Part shown: positions 31,683 through 40,646 of the stretch, one piece after another
Layout: each line of letters begins with the position of its first letter
Position numbering within the stretch: position 1 is the first letter of the stretch
From: Thiomicrorhabdus sp. 6S3-12
GTDB taxonomy: Bacteria > Pseudomonadota > Gammaproteobacteria > Thiomicrospirales > Thiomicrospiraceae
DNA: 64,000 bases
NCBI RefSeq assembly: GCF_017571475.1
Contig: NZ_JAGETW010000009.1
Coordinates: 62,001-126,000 of the forward strand
Direction: 5' to 3'
The notes under the pieces: generated by a model
Told to the model about the DNA's origin: nothing
What the model saw: only the letters and a program-made list of their open reading frames with translations
Databases searched by the model: none
Position numbers and translations under genes: made by a program

Positions 31683-33431
31683 GTGAGCGAAGCAACTTTT
31701 ATTAAAGGCAAGGTGAAACCCCTTGAAGAATCCATATCCCATCTCAGTTCGATACTGTCCGAAGTCGGGTTTGATATCCGTGAAGGCTTGAAATTAAACC
31801 CGGTTCCGGGAATTCACTCGCTGCATATTTATGAAAACAGTTGCCCGGGAATTTTTACCAACGGTAAGGGGGCTTCGGAAAAAGCCACGCTAGCCAGCGC
31901 ACTGGGCGAATATCTTGAGCGACTGTCGACAAATTATTTCTTTTCCGACTACTGGTTGGAAAACGATTTTGCGGCCAGCAAAAACGACTGGTTGTATTAT
32001 CCGAACGAAAAATCGTATGACCGCGAAAATTTCAAGCAGATGCTAAATCCCGAATTGTGGCGGTTTTATTCCGATTTGAGTCACAGCGAGGAATATGCGG
32101 ATTTTGCCGAAGACGATTTCGAGTTCGATACTTTTTTAAGTCTGAATGATCATGTCGATCAAATTCGAGCTCTGCCATTAATTTCGCAGAAGACAGGCGA
32201 GACCTGCTATTTCCCTATGAACCTGCTCAGTAACCTGTATGCCAGTAACGGCTTGTCTGCCGGTAACAGCGCGCTTGAGGCGCAGGTTCAGGGTCTGTCC
32301 GAGGTATTCGAGCGATGGGTTAAAAACCGTATTTTGCGTGAAAACATTTGTCTGCCGCTGGTTCCGCAGGAAGTCCTTGATCAGTTTCCGCAAGTCGTTA
32401 CAGCGATTGCTGCACTGCAGGAAGAAGGGATTTATACCGAAGTGCGCGATGCTTCATTGGGCGGTGTTTTCCCGGTTATGAACGTCACGCTGTTCCATCA
32501 GGCAAGCGGCCGTTGTTTCGCTTCATTCGGCGCGCATCCGATATTTGAAGTTGCCGTGGAAAGAACGCTTACCGAATCACTGCAAGGCCGCCATCTTAAA
32601 GAGCTGGATGGCTTCCAGACACCAAGTTTCGATCAGTTCGATGTCGCATCGGACGAAAACATTGAAAACCACTTTATCGACTCCAGCGGGCTGATCCACA
32701 GTCATTTCGTGGCCAGAGATTTCGATTACGAATTTGTCGCCTGGGATTTTACCGGCAATGTTGAACAGCAGTGGACACATCTCTGTGAACTGGTCTATCA
32801 GCAGGGTACGGATGTGTATGTCGCCAATTACAATCATTACGGCTTTGAAGCGTGCAGAATTATCGTTCCAGGGATGTCCGAAGTTTATCCTAAACACGAA
32901 ATTGTCGATGCAAATCAGAATTTTGGACGTCTGTTGCGAGAAGCGCTGTTAACTTATCCAGATCATCAGGATCCACTGCAAATTGTCGATCTCATTGATC
33001 AATTAGGTTTAAGTGATCACCAGGGAGTCGCTTCCTTGATCGGGCTGATGGCCGATAAGGGGAGTTTCTGGGCCGGTATAAATTGCCTGCAGCTTAAATT
33101 CTGGTGCTTGTTGGCCGCGCAGGAATACGAGGAAGCACTGGAATCGCTCGGTGGCGTGTGGTTCTTTATTGATCCGAACGATAAGCGATATTCGATCTAC
33201 AAAGCCTTTGAATTTGCCTTGGAAATCATGCTCTCAGAAACGACTGACGGAATCCAGGATACAAGCGCAGTTCAGGCTCTATTCGGTAATCAGGTTGCCG
33301 ATAAGGTTTTAGCCCATCTTGACGGATCCATGCAGTTCTGGGGGGCTCCAACCGGAATACGAATCTTTTCCAGCTCCGTACAGCATCAGACCATGCTGGA
33401 AATCTATCGTGCTGTAAACAAATTCAAGTGA
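31683..33431 (+). CDS. ycaO: YcaO-domain protein (RimO-associated type)
   Basis: This 582-residue protein matches E. coli YcaO in length and in motifs. YcaO enzymes activate amide oxygens with ATP. E. coli YcaO has been linked to beta-methylthiolation of ribosomal protein S12 by RimO, but its own reaction is unknown. Visible conserved blocks are GKGASEKATLASALGEYLERL (near residues 60-80), SAGNSALEAQVQGLSEVFERW (ATP/Mg site, near 190-215) and NVTLFHQASGRCFASFG. No peptide substrate, ThiF/Ocin or dehydrogenase gene lies nearby, so it is not a thiazole/oxazole-peptide cluster. Start is GTG after GAGGAG. A promoter for the next gene lies just past its stop. Confidence 0.92.
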   Translation: MSEATFIKGKVKPLEESISHLSSILSEVGFDIREGLKLNPVPGIHSLHIYENSCPGIFTNGKGASEKATLASALGEYLERLSTNYFFSDYWLENDFAASKNDWLYYPNEKSYDRENFKQMLNPELWRFYSDLSHSEEYADFAEDDFEFDTFLSLNDHVDQIRALPLISQKTGETCYFPMNLLSNLYASNGLSAGNSALEAQVQGLSEVFERWVKNRILRENICLPLVPQEVLDQFPQVVTAIAALQEEGIYTEVRDASLGGVFPVMNVTLFHQASGRCFASFGAHPIFEVAVERTLTESLQGRHLKELDGFQTPSFDQFDVASDENIENHFIDSSGLIHSHFVARDFDYEFVAWDFTGNVEQQWTHLCELVYQQGTDVYVANYNHYGFEACRIIVPGMSEVYPKHEIVDANQNFGRLLREALLTYPDHQDPLQIVDLIDQLGLSDHQGVASLIGLMADKGSFWAGINCLQLKFWCLLAAQEYEEALESLGGVWFFIDPNDKRYSIYKAFEFALEIMLSETTDGIQDTSAVQALFGNQVADKVLAHLDGSMQFWGAPTGIRIFSSSVQHQTMLEIYRAVNKFK

Positions 33432-33485: not shown

Positions 33486-33592
33486 AAGGTTCTACTATTC
33501 CTTTTTGTAAAAAAAGAAGAACCTTTAATTGCCGATTTCGGTAAGAAAGCTGTGACATTGCTACCTATAGAAGGCTATAGCCTGCAGGTAGC
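33486..33592 (+). promoter_or_regulatory. Structured leader of the repeat-lipoprotein mRNA (two hairpins)
   Basis: Hairpin one pairs AAGGTTCT (33486-33493) with AGAACCTT (33518-33525) and has an inner CTTTTT/AAAAAG stem. Hairpin two pairs GCTACCT (33560-33566) with AGGTAGC (33586-33592) and encloses the palindrome GGCTATAGCC and two copies of CTATAG. The AAGGAG ribosome site follows at 33608-33613. The first could also serve as the ycaO terminator. A regulated leader is inferred. Confidence 0.4.
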
Positions 33593-33620
33593 GATGTCTG
33601 GCGAAGCAAGGAGCTTTTGT

Positions 33621-35645
33621 ATGAAAAGAAGAGAATTTATGACGCTGGCCGGCCGTTTGGCGGCCGCAACATCGCTACCGGTTTCACTCGTCGGCTGCGG
33701 TGGCGGATCGGACAGCACTGCGGTCAATCTCAGCAGCATCGACGCCAGAGTTGCAACCACAAACGATCAGCTGACGGATGTATCAGCGGTCAATAATGAT
33801 CTTCAGGTTGAAAACAGTCAAATTATCGCAAGCTCTTCCCCCGCATCAGCAGCAACTGCACGCAGCACGACGGTCTCCAGCAGTATTGCCGATTTTTTCC
33901 ATTCCCGTTCGCCGAATGACTTCCTGCCTTATAACCATTATCTATCAGATCCGGATTCGGATAATATTTGGCAAGATCTGATTCACTCCCAGCAACAGGC
34001 GTATGATGATTTTGAACATCAATTAGCCAAGTTGATGGCGACTTTCCGTCTATATGATTATAAAAATCCCTACGCCAGTACCGATGCGGTTTCCCCGATA
34101 GGAATCACTCAGGCACAAGCAAGAGGTGCGGCGCAATCCGAATTGACTGACGAAGAGCAGGAATTATTTTCGGCGGTTGATCGTATTCTGGATAATATTC
34201 AAGACTACATCGCATCTTATGGCCTCAAGTGGGTAGTCGATTTCATTACACCGGTTTTAAAAGCGTTGTACGAAATAATTGTCAGCGCGGATGTGCTTAA
34301 ACAGCTGGTTATCCAGTTTCTTGCGCAGCTGTTTTTGGAACGCTTTCTTGAGGCGGTGACGGAAAATGCTTTACAGGATTTGAATTTCGATTCGAAAGGT
34401 CAAACCATGTTGAGCTTTGCAAAAATGTCGGTTGCGGCCATCTCGGTTCTTGCTCTTGATCGCATTGACTACTTGTCGGCGGATAATTCGCAGGAAGCGG
34501 TCAATTACATGACGACCTATCTGACTGCAGGCAATCTGATCGCGCGTCTGTTGATAACATGGCTCGAGCTGTCACAGGCAATGGTCACGACTACGGTGAG
34601 TACAGCCACAGCGGAAATTCGCACGGCAATTGATGCGGATGAAGGAAGTCAGGTTGGTGGTAATGAGGCGTTGGGAACAGAACTCAGAACCAATGCCGCG
34701 ATTTTGGCGATTACCGGTTTTACAATCAAGCAACTGCTAAGCACTTTTATCGACATTGATAATAAACAAACGGTCAGTGCCGAATTCGCTGAGGATGGCA
34801 CTGCCTTGCCGTTCAGCTTTTTGTTTCAATCGCCGATTACTCTGGCGGATCAGGCGATAAGCCGTTTCAGTTATAACAATATTGATTTACAGACTAACCT
34901 CCAAAGTATTCTCTCGCGTTTTGTCGATCAGACTTATGCCTCTGAAAATGTTGACGAAGAGACCGATCTTCAGGCGGAAGTGGATGCCATCGCCGCACTG
35001 CACATTAATACCCGTACCAGCCTTTCCGAGCAAATCATCGCCGAGACTGCCAGTATCGAAACGGACGCCTATAATTTCGCACTGGAACTGGCACAGCTGG
35101 CATTTGAATTTACCAGCAATACGGAAGAAGATGCTTACCTTTTTGCCAGCCAGATGGCGGAATATGCCTATAACTTTACGATGGATATTGAAGAAGATGC
35201 CTATAACTTTGCTATGCAGGGGATGGAGTACGGATACCTGTTTGCTTCCCGCGGCGAAGAGGTCGGCATAATGGCTGACCGCATCCTCTGGATGGCTGTC
35301 CAGATCGGTGTTATGGCCGATCGCATCGGCGAGATGGCGGATAGAATTGTCTATACAGAGCAGTTGATTGTTTATACGGAAATGCTGATTCTGGATTTTG
35401 GCGTGCTGATCTACGGTGTTATCAAACAGATTACCAATCTGATTCTGAGCGGAATGGCGCTCATTCTGGATCGAGATTGGTATACACCGGATTCAGAAGA
35501 TTTAATTCTTAGCACGATCGACAAGAACGTAACGGCAATGTTGGAGAATATGCAGGCGTATTCGCTTGCAGTACTCGAAAATCAAAGAGCACTGCGGGAA
35601 ATTACCCAGGACGCCATTGATACCATTCCCGAACTGTCTGCTTAA
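33621..35645 (+). CDS. Predicted Tat-exported lipoprotein with tandem 11-mer and GxMADRI 7-mer repeats
   Basis: This is a 674-residue protein I cannot name. ATG 33621 follows AAGGAG at good spacing; an in-frame ATG 69 nt earlier lacks one. The N-terminus MKRREFMTLAG has a twin-arginine motif, and LVGC at residues 23-26 is a lipobox with Cys26 followed by GGG, so a Tat lipoprotein is likely. Residues 30-110 are Ser/Thr/Ala-rich and linker-like, 110-480 are helical with hydrophobic patches (IIVSADVLKQLVIQFLAQLF). Residues 482-547 hold six 11-residue repeats (DAYNFA...) and 549-604 eight 7-residue repeats (GIMADRI, GVMADRI...). The short tail to 674 is helical. It is followed 22 bp later by a LolA-like gene. 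It may be a cell-surface or outer-membrane helical lipoprotein; function unknown. Confidence 0.85.
   Translation: MKRREFMTLAGRLAAATSLPVSLVGCGGGSDSTAVNLSSIDARVATTNDQLTDVSAVNNDLQVENSQIIASSSPASAATARSTTVSSSIADFFHSRSPNDFLPYNHYLSDPDSDNIWQDLIHSQQQAYDDFEHQLAKLMATFRLYDYKNPYASTDAVSPIGITQAQARGAAQSELTDEEQELFSAVDRILDNIQDYIASYGLKWVVDFITPVLKALYEIIVSADVLKQLVIQFLAQLFLERFLEAVTENALQDLNFDSKGQTMLSFAKMSVAAISVLALDRIDYLSADNSQEAVNYMTTYLTAGNLIARLLITWLELSQAMVTTTVSTATAEIRTAIDADEGSQVGGNEALGTELRTNAAILAITGFTIKQLLSTFIDIDNKQTVSAEFAEDGTALPFSFLFQSPITLADQAISRFSYNNIDLQTNLQSILSRFVDQTYASENVDEETDLQAEVDAIAALHINTRTSLSEQIIAETASIETDAYNFALELAQLAFEFTSNTEEDAYLFASQMAEYAYNFTMDIEEDAYNFAMQGMEYGYLFASRGEEVGIMADRILWMAVQIGVMADRIGEMADRIVYTEQLIVYTEMLILDFGVLIYGVIKQITNLILSGMALILDRDWYTPDSEDLILSTIDKNVTAMLENMQAYSLAVLENQRALREITQDAIDTIPELSA
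35064..35432 (+). repeat. Coding tandem repeats: six 11-mers then eight 7-mers
   Basis: From 35064, 33-nt units encode DAYNFALELAQ, LAFEFTSNTEE, DAYLFASQMAE, YAYNFTMDIEE, DAYNFAMQGME and YGYLFASRGEE, pairing into three 66-nt (22-residue) units. After one Val, 21-nt units encode GIMADRI, LWMAVQI, GVMADRI, GEMADRI, VYTEQLI, VYTEMLI, LDFGVLI and YGVIKQI, each ending in Ile. DNA identity is modest, so the repeats are old and kept at protein level. Confidence 0.9.
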
Positions 35646-35667
35646 CTGAAAGATGTGATCGATTAAT

Positions 35668-36420
35668 ATGCGTTTTTCTGCTTTTAAATCTATCGTGCCG
35701 TTGAGTGTCTTTTGGCTGCTTGCTTCATCTACCGTCTCGGCAGGCGAGGAAAGTGCATTATACGAGGAAGCGGTGAAAATATTCGCACAGCCGAAAATAT
35801 CGCTTACCGTTGATTCTCATATTCAATTTTCCGAGGATACTTTCGAGGAGCGCAGTTTTTTTCTGGCCAAGTATGATCAGGATGCCAGGCGTTCATTGCT
35901 TATCCGTTTTCTTGAACCGGACGACATCAAGTGCACAGCGGTGTTGATCAACAGCGATGTCGGTACAACCCAGCGCTATGCCTATTTTCCCGCTCTTAAA
36001 AGGCTGCGCGTCATTCCGGATTCGGAAAAGGGTAATGAGGTTTTTGGAATCGGGATCTCCTATGAGGATCTCGGTGAGCCTCAAGGGCGGTTCGAACCTC
36101 TGGAAACGGTTGAACTGAATGGACGTTTAAGTTATCAACTTACGATGCTTGAGGGCGATCGGAAGGAAGTGTATTTTATCGACAAAAACTCGCATCAGTT
36201 TTATCAGATGCGGGTCTATAAAGGTCGTGAGTTGCAAAAAAAGGTCATTATCAATGAGATGCAACCGTTTTTCGGTGAGCCTTTAATCACTTCGTGGCAG
36301 ATTGAATATCCGTCAAGCGGTAAAAAGATATCGTACCGGGTACGAAAAAACTCGGTCAGTCAGGCGTTTAGCGGCGAAATCTTCCAAAAAAACAAATTGA
36401 AGCGCTGTAGAACGCTTTGA
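35668..36420 (+). CDS. LolA-like outer-membrane lipoprotein-sorting family protein
   Basis: This 250-residue exported protein has a signal peptide ending STVSA (about residue 25). The mature part follows the LolA-like (outer membrane lipoprotein-sorting protein) pattern of an incomplete beta-barrel: LLIRFLEPDDIKCTAVLINS, QRYAYFPALKRLRVIP and VFGIGISYEDLG are typical of the family, which is usually found beside RND/MMPL permeases. It probably binds a lipid or an acylated protein in the periplasm. It follows the repeat lipoprotein by 22 bp and converges on the permease gene with a 19-bp gap. True LolA is expected elsewhere; this is a paralog of unknown cargo. Confidence 0.85.
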   Translation: MRFSAFKSIVPLSVFWLLASSTVSAGEESALYEEAVKIFAQPKISLTVDSHIQFSEDTFEERSFFLAKYDQDARRSLLIRFLEPDDIKCTAVLINSDVGTTQRYAYFPALKRLRVIPDSEKGNEVFGIGISYEDLGEPQGRFEPLETVELNGRLSYQLTMLEGDRKEVYFIDKNSHQFYQMRVYKGRELQKKVIINEMQPFFGEPLITSWQIEYPSSGKKISYRVRKNSVSQAFSGEIFQKNKLKRCRTL

Positions 36421-36439
36421 ACGATGTTTTCGAAAGCAA

Positions 36440-38293
36440 TCATGCTGGCGAACGGGACAGATAGGTTCTAAAGAGCGTCGGCAGCAGCAGTATGCTCAGT
36501 AGAAGATGGCTGCAGAGCAAAATAGCTAATTCCATACCAAAGAAATGCAGAACGCCCTGCATAAAAAAGGCCATCAGCATCAGGCTTGCGATCATGATCA
36601 GGTTTGAAAGTACGACCGGTTTAAAGACCGTTCTGAAACAGTCTTTTTCATGGTTTTTGTAAGTAAGGGCTATATGAATCAGATTGTCGGACACGATTCC
36701 GACAAACAGTATGGCTGAAATCAGACTGATCACCGAAAGTTCAAAACCGAAAATCATATGCAAGAGCATGAATATCATCAGGCTAAGCGCAATGGGCAGA
36801 AGGGTAACCAATGCCCGCAGTCGTTTGAACAGAATGGCGAATAGAGCGCTGAGTAGCAGCAGAATGTTAAACAGGCTGTAGGCTGTTTCAAGGATAAATC
36901 GGTTTTGATAGGTTTCAGCCATCGATGTATGACCCAATAGTTTTACCGTAAATCCCGACCGCTTCAGGTCGGCATGGTCCATCGTGGTTTTTAGTTCGAC
37001 CAGGGTGGAAACCGGTTCGAGCAGACTAATTGCCCCTATAAAGAAGGTGTTTCGGCCGTCATTGCCAAACAGAAACCTGTCCAGCCCCATCATGTCGTTT
37101 GCCAGCTTGAACTGGGAAAACTTGCGAGAATCCGTTGCGGATAACGGCTCGTCACTGAATTGCCGGTAGGCAGAGCCCATATCAAACAAGGTCCGATATT
37201 TGATATCCGTCTCTTTAAACAATTGCGCGATAAAATTCTGATACTTCAAGGTGCACTCCAATTCGCGCAAAGAGCACTCATTCGAGTGAATTTGCATCAT
37301 AAACGGCTGGGCAAGAGAAACGTCTGCTTCAAACTGTAAAATTTGTTGATGTTGCGATGACAGGCTCAGCGGATTGAGTTCTACCGCAACGGGCTTAGTC
37401 TGGTAGGCAACCAGACACGTAGCACCTAGCAGTAATAGCCCCGTCCAGATAAATGACGCTTTGTAGACGATAGGTTTGAACCGGAACCAGTTAAGAGTCA
37501 GGCGAGTCTGATCAATAAATTGCAGTCGGATAGCTAGATAAAAGGCCAAGACACTGATCCAAATGGTTAATGCGTAACCGAAGTCGCTGACTAAACCGAA
37601 GTCGGACAGGTATAGGAGTATTCCACTTAACCAGGTGGTGGCGACCGATACAATGAAGCTAAGGCGAAGCGATTTTGCATCCAGCTTATTGAAATACAAT
37701 TGATTCAGCAGGGTAAAAACATAGATGTAGACAAACAGAAGAGCGAGTAAGGACGCAGGGTTCAATTCGATCGAGTAAAACTGAATTATGCCTAGTAACA
37801 AAACCGAGAAAAGGGCGATTTCCAGCAGTGCGTTCAATAAAAAGCGATACCCGGTCAGAAAAAAAATGCCCAAAATAATTACCGGTATAAACAGCCACAG
37901 ATAGTGCAAGAGTTCCTCGACAAACTCTTTCGATAAGATCGCACCGATTACCGGCGGACCCAGAATTTTATTCTCTTTAAGGAACTGTAAAATCCCAGGC
38001 TGTTTATCAATCGAATAAATTAATAGCGAGTTGTATTGCTCGTCCTGCTTGGAGGGGATGGCGATAAGCTGTTTCACCAGTCCCGATTGCTCAAGATCTG
38101 CGGCCTCTCCGGGATTGTGGCTACTGACGAAGAGGTAGCGCTGACTGAGTTTGAGCTCTTCGACAGTTGATTCTGTAATGGTCTGCGGGAAAAATTTAGT
38201 GATGTCGGTTTGCGTAAAAGTCAAATGACTGCCAAGCAGTAGACTGAAAATGATACTGATCAGGATGACGGTCAATTTAGCCAGATTAATCAA
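36440..38293 (-). CDS. Short RND/MMPL-family membrane permease
   Basis: This 617-residue inner-membrane protein has an RND-like layout of 12 predicted TM segments: one near residue 10, five between about 125 and 255, one near 275 and five in the last 150 residues. Two periplasmic domains of about 100 and 190 residues are much smaller than in typical MMPL proteins (about 770 or more). The second half has the family TM signature FVGIVSDNLIHIALTY with an Asp; the first half lacks it. No stop or frameshift was seen, so it is a natural short form. ATG overlaps the upstream barrel gene stop by 4 bp. Cargo is probably a lipid or hydrophobic molecule, inferred from the LolA-like neighbour. Confidence 0.82.
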   Translation of the reverse strand: MINLAKLTVILISIIFSLLLGSHLTFTQTDITKFFPQTITESTVEELKLSQRYLFVSSHNPGEAADLEQSGLVKQLIAIPSKQDEQYNSLLIYSIDKQPGILQFLKENKILGPPVIGAILSKEFVEELLHYLWLFIPVIILGIFFLTGYRFLLNALLEIALFSVLLLGIIQFYSIELNPASLLALLFVYIYVFTLLNQLYFNKLDAKSLRLSFIVSVATTWLSGILLYLSDFGLVSDFGYALTIWISVLAFYLAIRLQFIDQTRLTLNWFRFKPIVYKASFIWTGLLLLGATCLVAYQTKPVAVELNPLSLSSQHQQILQFEADVSLAQPFMMQIHSNECSLRELECTLKYQNFIAQLFKETDIKYRTLFDMGSAYRQFSDEPLSATDSRKFSQFKLANDMMGLDRFLFGNDGRNTFFIGAISLLEPVSTLVELKTTMDHADLKRSGFTVKLLGHTSMAETYQNRFILETAYSLFNILLLLSALFAILFKRLRALVTLLPIALSLMIFMLLHMIFGFELSVISLISAILFVGIVSDNLIHIALTYKNHEKDCFRTVFKPVVLSNLIMIASLMLMAFFMQGVLHFFGMELAILLCSHLLLSILLLPTLFRTYLSRSPA

Positions 38294-39708
38294 AACTTAA
38301 CCTTTAAACGCATTGAGAAAGAATTGGGAGCATATTCCTGTTTGTCATGCAGCAGATATTCAAAAGCGATCTGCAAATCTTTTTTGTCCAAAGCCAGCTT
38401 TACCAAATCGGCTTTAATCGAATTTTCCTTGACGCGGGCCGCCGTCAAAACATTCTGAAAGGTGAATTCCCAGCCGTCTTTATGCCATGGTTCAAGTTCA
38501 AGCAACCAGAAAGCGACACTGCTGGCCGCATCGACCTTATCGTAATACGAATACTGTAATTCCAGGCTGGTATAGAATCCGTTGCGGTAATCCGCGCCAA
38601 AACCGAGAGTCGCTTGGTTGGTTACCCGGTCAAGAAGCGGAAGCTTGTCCCGGTAACTTAATTCGCCTCTTAAGCCGAACTGGTTCCAGGAGGTTTCATA
38701 ATAAGCGGCGGCCTGATAAAAACGTTCGAATTCCATCTGCACGATGGGCGAATTATCGTCATTTTGCAGATACTGTTCGATATAGGAGGCTTTATCGGAG
38801 CTGTCAGTAGACGCCAAGTCATTTAACAACTCCGGGTTGATCTTTATCAGCGGAATTTTCGCTAAGCCGCTGAACGCAGAAAAGCCGATAATGAAATTGT
38901 CGCGGGTTATTAAATGATTGATGCCGACGGTGGAATTCTCGAACGAGTGTTCGGTATCCGGCCAGTTTTCGCTGAGGTATTTACTGACTGCCGCCTTGCC
39001 GTTGTCTTCATACACCGGCAGCAGAACTTTTTCGCCCACCAGATTCAAGTCGTCATTACCGGTGTTAACCATTAAGAACGGAATGAAGACGTTAAGGCCG
39101 TATTGATAAAAACCGCTGTTTATTGCGTATTCTTCCTTGTTCAGGGGCTTGAAGTGCAGACTGGTTGTCGCTTCATCGTTGTTATACCAATTGAATTGTG
39201 CCATCCAGGCCGGAGCAAAGCGCAGATTAATGTTGGTTTCATCGTAATAGTTTAGTTGTAACTCATTCAACGGGTTGATGTTGCCAAGGTAATCAAGCGT
39301 ACCGATTTTTGAAACAAATTTACCGATTCGATAATCAAAGTGCTCATTCAATGAGGCAAATGAGAAATGGTTTATGGAAAAGTTATCGTCAGTGCGACGG
39401 GACTCTGTTAAATCCAGTTTCAGACCGTAACTGAGTTCATAGTCGGAGCCGAAATAGGTGCCTTCATGCAGTCCTAAAAAAACATCCGCTAAAAGTTTTC
39501 CGTTGAAATAATGTTGGTGACGAATACTGTGACGGATATCCAGTCCCTTTCCGATACTGGCCAATTCCTGCAGTAGCGGCTCTCCGGATGCGACGGGAAT
39601 GTCAGAGTCTTCGATTGACATAGCCTGTACAGAAGAAATGGAAAAAAGGATAGAAAATGCAAGTGTCTTGAAAGTGTGTCGGAGGAGAGCTTCGCGTTGA
39701 AAATGCAT
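38290..39708 (-). CDS. Predicted outer-membrane beta-barrel protein
   Basis: This 472-residue precursor has a signal peptide ending SSVQA (about residue 29). The mature chain alternates polar and aromatic residues in amphipathic strands and ends in Phe (SMRLKVKF), a barrel-insertion signal. A stretch YRIGKFVSKIGTLDYLGNINPLNELQ resembles the DUF1302/porin-like families found beside RND permeases and LolA-like proteins; the match is by eye and uncertain. An in-frame ATG 183 nt upstream lacks any signal-like sequence next to it, so 39708 is chosen. It overlaps the permease gene by 4 bp, so both are one operon. It may form the outer-membrane step of the pathway. Confidence 0.8.
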   Translation of the reverse strand: MHFQREALLRHTFKTLAFSILFSISSVQAMSIEDSDIPVASGEPLLQELASIGKGLDIRHSIRHQHYFNGKLLADVFLGLHEGTYFGSDYELSYGLKLDLTESRRTDDNFSINHFSFASLNEHFDYRIGKFVSKIGTLDYLGNINPLNELQLNYYDETNINLRFAPAWMAQFNWYNNDEATTSLHFKPLNKEEYAINSGFYQYGLNVFIPFLMVNTGNDDLNLVGEKVLLPVYEDNGKAAVSKYLSENWPDTEHSFENSTVGINHLITRDNFIIGFSAFSGLAKIPLIKINPELLNDLASTDSSDKASYIEQYLQNDDNSPIVQMEFERFYQAAAYYETSWNQFGLRGELSYRDKLPLLDRVTNQATLGFGADYRNGFYTSLELQYSYYDKVDAASSVAFWLLELEPWHKDGWEFTFQNVLTAARVKENSIKADLVKLALDKKDLQIAFEYLLHDKQEYAPNSFSMRLKVKF

Positions 39709-39886: not shown

Positions 39887-39899
39887 GACATAAATAAGT

Positions 39900-40646
39900 T
39901 TAGAAGTCGTATACCAGTGTAATGAGTGTCTGGGTATCCAGTTTCAGTGCGCCGTCGGCCGGATCGGAGTTGTGACGGTATTTATAACCGACACTCAGAC
40001 GCAGTTTTTCTGCCATTTTGACTTTGACTGCGGTGTTGGCTTCGGTTTTTGTGTTCGCTTCACCAAAGGTCGCGGTTACATCCTGTGAGAAGTCCGCGTA
40101 TTGAGTTAATTTGTGGTTGACTTCGGCTTTAAAGCGTCCGATTACCTGGTCTTCAGAGCCGTTACCGAACTCGTCCGAGTAATCGATGGTCTGATAACCC
40201 ACACCCAGTTCGACAAGGAATTGCGTGCTTGGTGTTTTGTACAGCTCTTTACCCAGACCCAACGTATAGGTCGCGTCCAGATCAACGCCTTCAAATTTAC
40301 TCTTTTCAAAACGCGCGCCAACGAAGCTGTAGTAATTGTGCGCTTCGTTGTAGAAGCGATTCATCTGTGCATCCAGAAGATAACGTTCTTGCGTCTGGAT
40401 ATCGTTTTCAGATTTATAGTTGGCTTCGATCAGTGTTTTGATTTCGTACACCGGCTGGGTGTATTTGGCTTTTAATGACCCGTATAGCGAGGTACTGACG
40501 GTATTTCCGTCGGAATCGCTGTAACCGAGTTCACCGGAGCCACTAAGACCGTCAGCCATGACCGGAGTCGCCAGTACAGCCGTCAGTAAGGTGGATAGAG
40601 CGATGCTGGATTGTTTGGGTGTAGAGTTGTGACGATTTAAGTGCAT
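39900..40646 (-). CDS. DUF481 (YdiY-like) outer-membrane protein
   Basis: This 248-residue precursor has a signal peptide ending TPVMA (about residue 31). The mature chain fits DUF481, a small outer-membrane barrel family of unknown function: GSGELGYSDSDGNTVSTSLYGSLKA at the start, YSFVGARFEKSKFEGVDLDATYTLGLG in the middle and a C-terminal Phe (TLVYDF). Some members were named salt-induced proteins. It runs on the minus strand, separated from the barrel-permease operon by a hairpin, so membership in that system is doubtful. It diverges from accA over 298 bp. Confidence 0.88.
   Translation of the reverse strand: MHLNRHNSTPKQSSIALSTLLTAVLATPVMADGLSGSGELGYSDSDGNTVSTSLYGSLKAKYTQPVYEIKTLIEANYKSENDIQTQERYLLDAQMNRFYNEAHNYYSFVGARFEKSKFEGVDLDATYTLGLGKELYKTPSTQFLVELGVGYQTIDYSDEFGNGSEDQVIGRFKAEVNHKLTQYADFSQDVTATFGEANTKTEANTAVKVKMAEKLRLSVGYKYRHNSDPADGALKLDTQTLITLVYDF

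Follow-up and report, generated by a model that had tools for sequence, protein, structure and literature searches.

A cassette of four genes forming one evolutionary unit was identified in the genome of Thiomicrorhabdus sp. 6S3-12 (2.55 Mb, split over 19 contigs), within a 64,000-nucleotide stretch of contig NZ_JAGETW010000009.1 (positions 62,001 to 126,000 of the forward strand; hereafter the window). The cassette encodes a repeat lipoprotein with a twin-arginine translocation (Tat)-type signal (REP), a LolA-like carrier (LOLA), a short permease of the RND type (RND) and a putative outer-membrane beta-barrel (BARREL). Our preferred reading, held tentatively and a little short of an even chance, is that the cassette serves as a dedicated line from the inner to the outer membrane for a hydrophobic or amphiphilic molecule, with REP as its acceptor or scaffold. 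The features of the locus are as follows.

33621–35645, + strand: REP, repeat lipoprotein with Tat-type signal, 674 aa; variable N-terminal region (residues 23–474), 22-mer amphipathic array (482–548), heptad MADRI array (549–619) and helical tail
35064–35264, + strand: 22-residue (2 x 11) repeat block of REP, residues 482–548 (lag-22 identity, hydrophobic moment)
35265–35477, + strand: heptad MADRI block of REP, residues 549–619 (lag-7 identity)
35668–36420, + strand: LOLA, LolA-like carrier, 250 aa, 22 bp downstream of REP
36440–38293, − strand: RND, short RND-type permease, 617 aa, TTG start, convergent with LOLA across a 19-bp gap
38290–39708, − strand: BARREL, putative outer-membrane beta-barrel, 472 aa, 4-bp overlap with RND
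33515–39577, no strand: block absent from the same-genus genome G020, with 8 bp in its place (blastn against the G020 locus, L145)

The gene map of the window holds no genes between 33.6 and 39.7 kb beyond these four. If translated from an ATG further upstream, at 39891, BARREL would be 533 aa long. An earlier reading made from the sequence alone had given the two gaps, the overlap and the lengths of REP and RND correctly.

A cassette shared by two phyla

The first survey covered 142 genomes, including the source genome, of which G000–G031 belong to one genus according to the kinship column. Cassette-type REP was found in five of them (G000, G007, G008, G019 and G022), and the cassette-type permease (E below 1e-20; first 176 residues only in G007) in the same five. 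LOLA relatives at E below 1e-20 were likewise confined to these five, as was BARREL, apart from a 46-residue match in a sixth genome, G020. Weaker LolA-like matches brought the count to 46/142 genomes, and RND-like matches occurred in 67/142. Cassette carriers make up 5 of the 32 same-genus genomes; the other 27 are without it. Gene order and convergent orientation in G008, G019 and G022 are those of the window, and in none of the three do the window's flanking genes stand beside the cassette. At the one site shared by G008 and G019, the four flanking genes are 83, 76, 65 and 50% identical, whereas the four cassette genes are 39–44% identical, indicating that the cassette evolves fast. The copy in G007 is decayed, with REP in two frames (a 229-residue fragment), and with RND and LOLA truncated at an insertion sequence, whose transposase-like frame is seen at both broken ends (L062 1–949, L146 6888–8003); this breakage could in part be an assembly error.

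The cassette-free genome G020, called a close relative here on its flank identities (89.6% and 86.5% to the window flanks in blastn), has 6,063 bases (window 33515–39577) swapped for 8, and approximately the first 44 barrel codons remain. This leftover barrel start argues for a deletion rather than a never-filled site.

The barrel profile was also searched against 200 genomes of Campylobacterota, the phylum of Sulfurimonas indica (G154), and matched three (G344, G227 and G275). G344 and G227 have the complete cassette in the same convergent layout; the contigs that bear it measure 2.56 and 2.25 Mb, respectively. Partial copies were seen in two metagenome-assembled genomes (MAGs): one labelled Sulfuricurvum (G142) has REP, LOLA and a partial RND on a 4.3-kb contig, with no barrel seen, and one labelled Sulfurimonas (G143) has the same three genes on a 3.6-kb contig, with REP cut at the contig end, and the barrel and permease start on a second contig beside a gene resembling purA. 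The short contigs of both could be misbinned, but for G143 there is the second contig as well. In the trees of all four genes (G007 in the barrel tree only, G142 not in that tree), the gammaproteobacterial and Campylobacterota copies were split by one branch or needed one change only, and thus these trees give no sign of a recent transfer of the cassette between the two phyla. Cassette-type REP occurred only with cassette partners in 9/9 genomes, including the barrel-less G142, the split G143 and the broken G007. Collectively, these results establish the cassette as real and as a single evolutionary unit. The sequence-only reading had proposed a dedicated four-gene system, to be checked by looking for the four genes together in several genera; their joint occurrence extends beyond a single genus and spans two phyla, and this, with the near-complete absence of the block from G020, bears the proposal out.

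The cassette is flanked in the window by a YcaO protein (31683–33431), whose score of 697.8 bits is just short of the cut-off of 700 for the S12 accessory-factor model, and by a DUF481 protein (39900–40646). Both genes have counterparts in G020.

The repeat lipoprotein

The N-terminus of REP carries a twin-arginine motif and a lipobox (MKRREF...LVGC26-G), with Cys26 followed by Gly. When read by eye, RRxF and a lipobox-like Cys with Gly next to it were present in 8/8 homologues with a readable N-terminus. Residues 482–548 comprise three 22-residue units, with a self-identity of 51% at lag 22 and 38% at lag 11 (reached by 0/1000 shuffles), and residues 549–619 show a lag-7 self-identity of 41% (again 0/1000). 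Repeat finders run on the DNA returned nothing of significance, Tandem Repeats Finder listing no array, and the repeats are visible only in the protein. The earlier description of a Tat/lipobox protein with tandem repeats is therefore accurate as to the motifs and holds for the repeats at the protein level. Amphipathic repeats of 11 residues follow an 11/3 helix geometry. With its 11/22-residue period and a hydrophobic moment peaking at 98.6 degrees (1/1000 shuffles as high), the 22-mer block resembles perilipins and apolipoproteins, with no sequence relation claimed, but REP differs from these in its lipoprotein signal and in the heptad block that follows the 11-mers.

Conservation along the cassette is markedly uneven. 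Mean identities within the genus and between the phyla were 29 versus 24% for the REP N-region, 62 versus 61% for the 22-mer block, 87 versus 83% for the heptad block (residues 549–612) and 58 versus 49% for the REP tail, compared with 42 versus 30% for LOLA, 40 versus 26% for RND and 36 versus 27% for BARREL (broken G007 copies left out; G143 REP and G142 RND partial; G344 and G227 proteins trimmed to plausible starts). No other part of the cassette is as conserved as the heptad block. Because it stays near-constant while every partner diverges, it is probably constrained by something that does not change, either itself or a constant ligand.

A candidate export line

LOLA belongs to PF17131 (LolA_like; E 3.3e-16, 59.9 bits against a curated cut-off of 30) and matches PDB entry 3bk5 (E 2.2e-6); its score against DUF1329 (14.9 bits) is below the cut-off of 23.1. 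The assignment of BARREL as an outer-membrane beta-barrel is suggested by its AlphaFold model, which has 19 strand elements and for which porins rank first in Foldseek (E 4.7e-7), but at a TM-score of about 0.3.

Sequence matches place the permease in the RND superfamily. It or its profile (A2) matches large frames at E 1.2e-8, 2.4e-7 and 2e-6, and these three frames were assigned to ACR_tran by Pfam (3/3 submitted, partial frames). The profile also matches the MMPL permease of G275 (E 1.6e-10), for which pairwise BLAST was weak (E 0.008), and a direct comparison with the Sulfurimonas MMPL protein gave no match. The hydropathy scan is compatible with 12 transmembrane (TM) segments in two repeats of 1 + 5, with a loop after TM1 and TM7 (TM1, 1–29; loop, about 30–123; five TM segments, 124–262; TM7, 278–299; loop, 300–465; remainder, 466–612), although in so simple a scan neighbouring segments merge or split, and 10–13 segments were printed across seven homologues. 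The two loops are small (about 95 and 165 aa).

Acidic proton-relay residues are found in both TM4 and TM10 in the RND superfamily. In the cassette permease, the fourth hydrophobic segment has no Asp or Glu in its core (LLALLFVYIYVFTLLNQ, residues 182–198), whereas Asp536 in the second half is kept in 8/8 homologues. The sequence-only reading had rightly described a short permease with small periplasmic domains that lacks the first-half TM Asp, but its picture of the first half overlooked Glu158 in the third segment, which is kept in 7/7 homologues covering that site and might stand in, in an unusual place, for the missing acid.

The closest described counterpart of the trio of LOLA, RND and BARREL is AmeABCD of Castellaniella defragrans, which likewise combines an outer-membrane protein, a LolA-superfamily periplasmic protein and an RND permease in one gene cassette (PMC6394551). 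Its deletion lowers monoterpene tolerance and raises the net influx of Nile Red in cells treated with carbonyl cyanide m-chlorophenylhydrazone (CCCP), and the role proposed for the system is export of small hydrophobic molecules (PMC6394551). The two systems also differ: AmeA is a DUF1302 protein and AmeB a DUF1329 protein, whereas BARREL has no Pfam family and LOLA falls below the DUF1329 cut-off; AmeC has no counterpart in our cassette; AmeD is an HAE3 permease of 787 aa, compared with 617 aa here; and no Tat lipoprotein is described for Ame, convergent genes being a feature of the present cassette.

A nearer relative was found in the Campylobacterota genome G275, where an operon (L153 7656–11903) encodes a LolA-like protein, a barrel and a permease, all related to those of the cassette (hidden Markov model E 2e-10, 8e-10 and 2e-10). 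It differs in the absence of REP, in a permease of 766 aa with an MMPL match, in a smaller barrel and in its arrangement as one co-directional operon. Next to it lie part of a nonribosomal peptide synthetase (NRPS), with AMP-binding, PP-binding and thioesterase domains, and genes for another thioesterase, for a phosphopantetheinyl transferase and for a TonB receptor; what the G275 trio exports is perhaps siderophore-like or linked to a lipid. Together with AmeABCD, this trio suggests that small molecules can be handled by a set made up of a LolA-superfamily protein, an RND permease and a barrel in the outer membrane. Hydrophobic matter is again close by in Thalassolituus, where a protein that combines MMPL and LolA-like domains was up 42-fold on a C28 alkane, although its authors propose that it transports a porin (PMC6304351).

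Since the protein classes match those of AmeABCD and the G275 trio lies beside an NRPS, we favour a trio that exports a hydrophobic product, with REP receiving or coating it. RND would take the molecule from the inner membrane, driven by the proton gradient; LOLA would then ferry it through the periplasm inside its greasy cavity, and BARREL would pass it across the outer membrane or insert it there. REP would be exported in folded form by the Tat route and held at the outer membrane by its acylated cysteine as acceptor and scaffold, its rod of 11- and 7-residue helical repeats binding the delivered material or polymerising on it.

Several results weigh against this export line. With the fourth-segment Asp missing, proton coupling of RND is predicted at most, and its activity as a pump may be doubtful. 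The permease matches ACR_tran and MMPL proteins alike and may belong to either the HAE3 or the HAE1 subfamily; no Pfam RND family was assigned to any of four cassette permeases (4/4), and its profile had no significant match in the PDB. The best-ranked solved structure there, in the C-terminal membrane part, was the HAE3 RND hopanoid transporter HpnN, at a non-significant E of 0.13 and with a longer chain of 877 aa. REP, RND and BARREL have no Pfam match at E 0.1, and NCBIfam contains no family for any of the four proteins, which counts here for RND, REP and BARREL. The AlphaFold models are of low confidence, with a mean predicted local distance difference test (pLDDT) score of 58 for BARREL and 49 for REP, the latter all-helical with long helices. 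The hydrophobic moment of the heptad block is not above that of shuffles (180 and 196 of 1000 as high), no biosynthetic gene beside the window cassette names a cargo, and the heptad module occurs in many proteins without the trio, which means that it may act independently of whatever the trio carries.

The HpnN ranking prompted consideration of a hopanoid cargo, which was rejected: SQHop_cyclase_N (PF13249) was matched in 0/11 genomes.

The literature searched, which left subscription journals mostly outside its coverage, contained no description of REP, its module or the four-gene combination. The trio is already of a known kind, while REP and the four-gene combination appear new. The earlier label of an undescribed system accordingly holds for REP and the combination within the libraries and literature covered, but not for the partner genes, which resemble known exporters.

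The heptad module outside the cassette, and other readings

A public-genome scan with the C-terminal domain of REP returned 62 loci, many with titles of sulfur-cycle taxa (Sulfurimonas, Thiovulum, Sulfurovum, Desulfobulbaceae, Sulfurivirga), and the MADRI module is also found in Anaerolineae and Nitrospirota. The module is rare, with a frequency of 7/369 in gammaproteobacterial genomes and 8/200 in Campylobacterota genomes, G275 not being among the latter eight. GxMADRI heptads, which the sequence-only reading ascribed to other uncharacterised proteobacterial proteins as well, do recur in many unannotated proteins. Where the module core can be aligned, insertions and deletions come in multiples of 7. 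No cassette partner was detected at E 1e-3 near L070–L127, within stretches of up to 8 kb per side and often less. REP and its module have no family in Pfam, NCBIfam, PHROGs or PADLOC.

The settings of the module are varied. Among plasmids, the permease had no match, and the matches of REP were limited to 40 residues on three haloarchaeal plasmids; in one plasmid protein (WP_246975995.1 of Natribaculum luteum; L168 5704–6189), a 40-residue stretch is 70% identical to the heptad block. Two Sulfurovum-group proteins of 2,341 and 2,399 aa (L116 4053–11240, L118 4032–11234) contain repeated units with MADRI blocks, and their C-terminal stretch resembles RTX calcium-binding repeats by eye. No signal peptide was visible by eye in the Thiovulum and Sulfurimonas module proteins. 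Clean 11-residue repeats were computed for the Sulfurimonas protein of L071; in L071, L072, L074 and L075 this 11-residue/MADRI protein is adjoined by small uncharacterised genes, and further off lies a row of MMPL, ABC ATPase and ABC-2 permease genes (Pfam on L072). A similar Thiovulum protein (L070, L073, L076), whose N-terminal part resembles a phage-type KilA-N/Bro domain by eye, is near genes resembling rpsF and ssb, with rpsR in L070 and L073. A short MADRI protein lies between trpE- and trpG-like genes in a gammaproteobacterium of another family (G080; L063 7759–8589). Neither a defence origin (best PADLOC E 0.011, Csm3, not convincing) nor a phage origin (best PHROGs E 0.032; 33 pattern matches in viral contigs, none of them a relative) was retained.

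Among the alternatives to an export line for a hydrophobic molecule, a lipoprotein cargo, REP itself, is possible. RND and LOLA would then constitute a private Lol pathway that takes acylated REP out of the inner membrane and, with BARREL, delivers it to the outer membrane or to the surface of the cell, as might be expected from the exclusive pairing of cassette-type REP with cassette partners and from the naming of PF17131 for lipoprotein sorting. We consider this unlikely. The cassette shares a LolA-type carrier family with the Lol pathway (LolABCDE) but has no ABC transporter, and canonical LolA (PF03548) is present elsewhere in 10/11 genomes examined, including 8/9 cassette carriers and the cassette-free G020. 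A Gly after the lipobox Cys suits the ordinary lipoprotein route, and the N-region, at its 29% identity in the genus, was taken to offer little that is constant for recognition besides the acylated cysteine. The related G275 trio, which adjoins the NRPS, has no REP to deliver. The sequence-only reading had offered REP as either the cargo or the display scaffold of the pathway; the G275 trio, the canonical LolA elsewhere and the small-molecule export ascribed to AmeABCD disfavour the cargo, whereas the scaffold survives in our preferred reading.

It is improbable, in our view, that REP polymerises through its heptad array into a surface fibre or layer, with the trio supplying lipid for its display. 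Self-assembly would explain why the heptad block is near-invariant while the partners diverge, and both the multiples of 7 in the module-core indels and the giant relatives with several modules are consistent with it, but the model of REP gives low-confidence helices only.

A sulfur cargo is attractive from taxonomy and literature; both phyla that carry the cassette count many sulfur oxidisers among their members. In this very doubtful scenario, the trio would export sulfur-bearing or sulfur-dissolving amphiphiles, and REP rods would coat S8 particles of extracellular elemental sulfur at the surface. Perilipins use 11-residue amphipathic repeats, and the named MAGs with cassette genes are titled Thiomicrorhabdus, Thiotrichales, Sulfuricurvum and Sulfurimonas. 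Thiomicrorhabdus lithotrophica secretes alpha-S8 (PMC10608990). Sulfuricurvum kujiense makes S(0) to which extracellular organic matter lends stability, and the envelopes of some particles contain amide groups, though spent medium of E. coli also yielded S(0) particles; the mechanism of extracellular S8 is termed 'somewhat enigmatic' (PMC6890823). Within the gammaproteobacterial sample covered by the test, however, SoxB (counted at E 1e-40) was present in 5/7 module-bearing genomes, including the source genome, versus 153/369 overall (hypergeometric P 0.11; 148 over the family cut-off, P 0.095). Dropping one weak module match post hoc (G374, E 1.4e-4) gave 5/6 (P 0.047), which we still treat as non-significant. 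The MADRI module is also present in haloarchaea and Anaerolineae, and the cassette in only 5/32 genomes of the genus. Because the SoxB test is non-significant and 27/32 genomes of the genus lack the cassette, sulfur stays a bold reading. Its fullest form, a long shot, would make the cassette the missing machine for extracellular S8, with RND, LOLA and BARREL exporting sulfur itself or an amphiphile that dissolves it, and REP a bacterial perilipin-like coat that keeps S8 at the surface.

That the genes are chance neighbours, or an ordinary efflux pump beside an unrelated lipoprotein, is scarcely credible, since the same order and orientation recur in two phyla beside unlike genes and the block is missing from the close relative G020, even though each protein class is common, as the RND-like and LolA-like counts show.

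Returning to the preferred export line, REP would add a new type of component to the little-tested RND-LolA-barrel systems, namely a lipoprotein whose amphipathic repeats are 11 and 7 residues long. In the libraries searched, the finding also points to a family-less helical module in several bacterial phyla and in haloarchaea. If the cargo is indeed related to sulfur, the placement of hydrophobic S8 outside the cell would become testable in sulfur bacteria.

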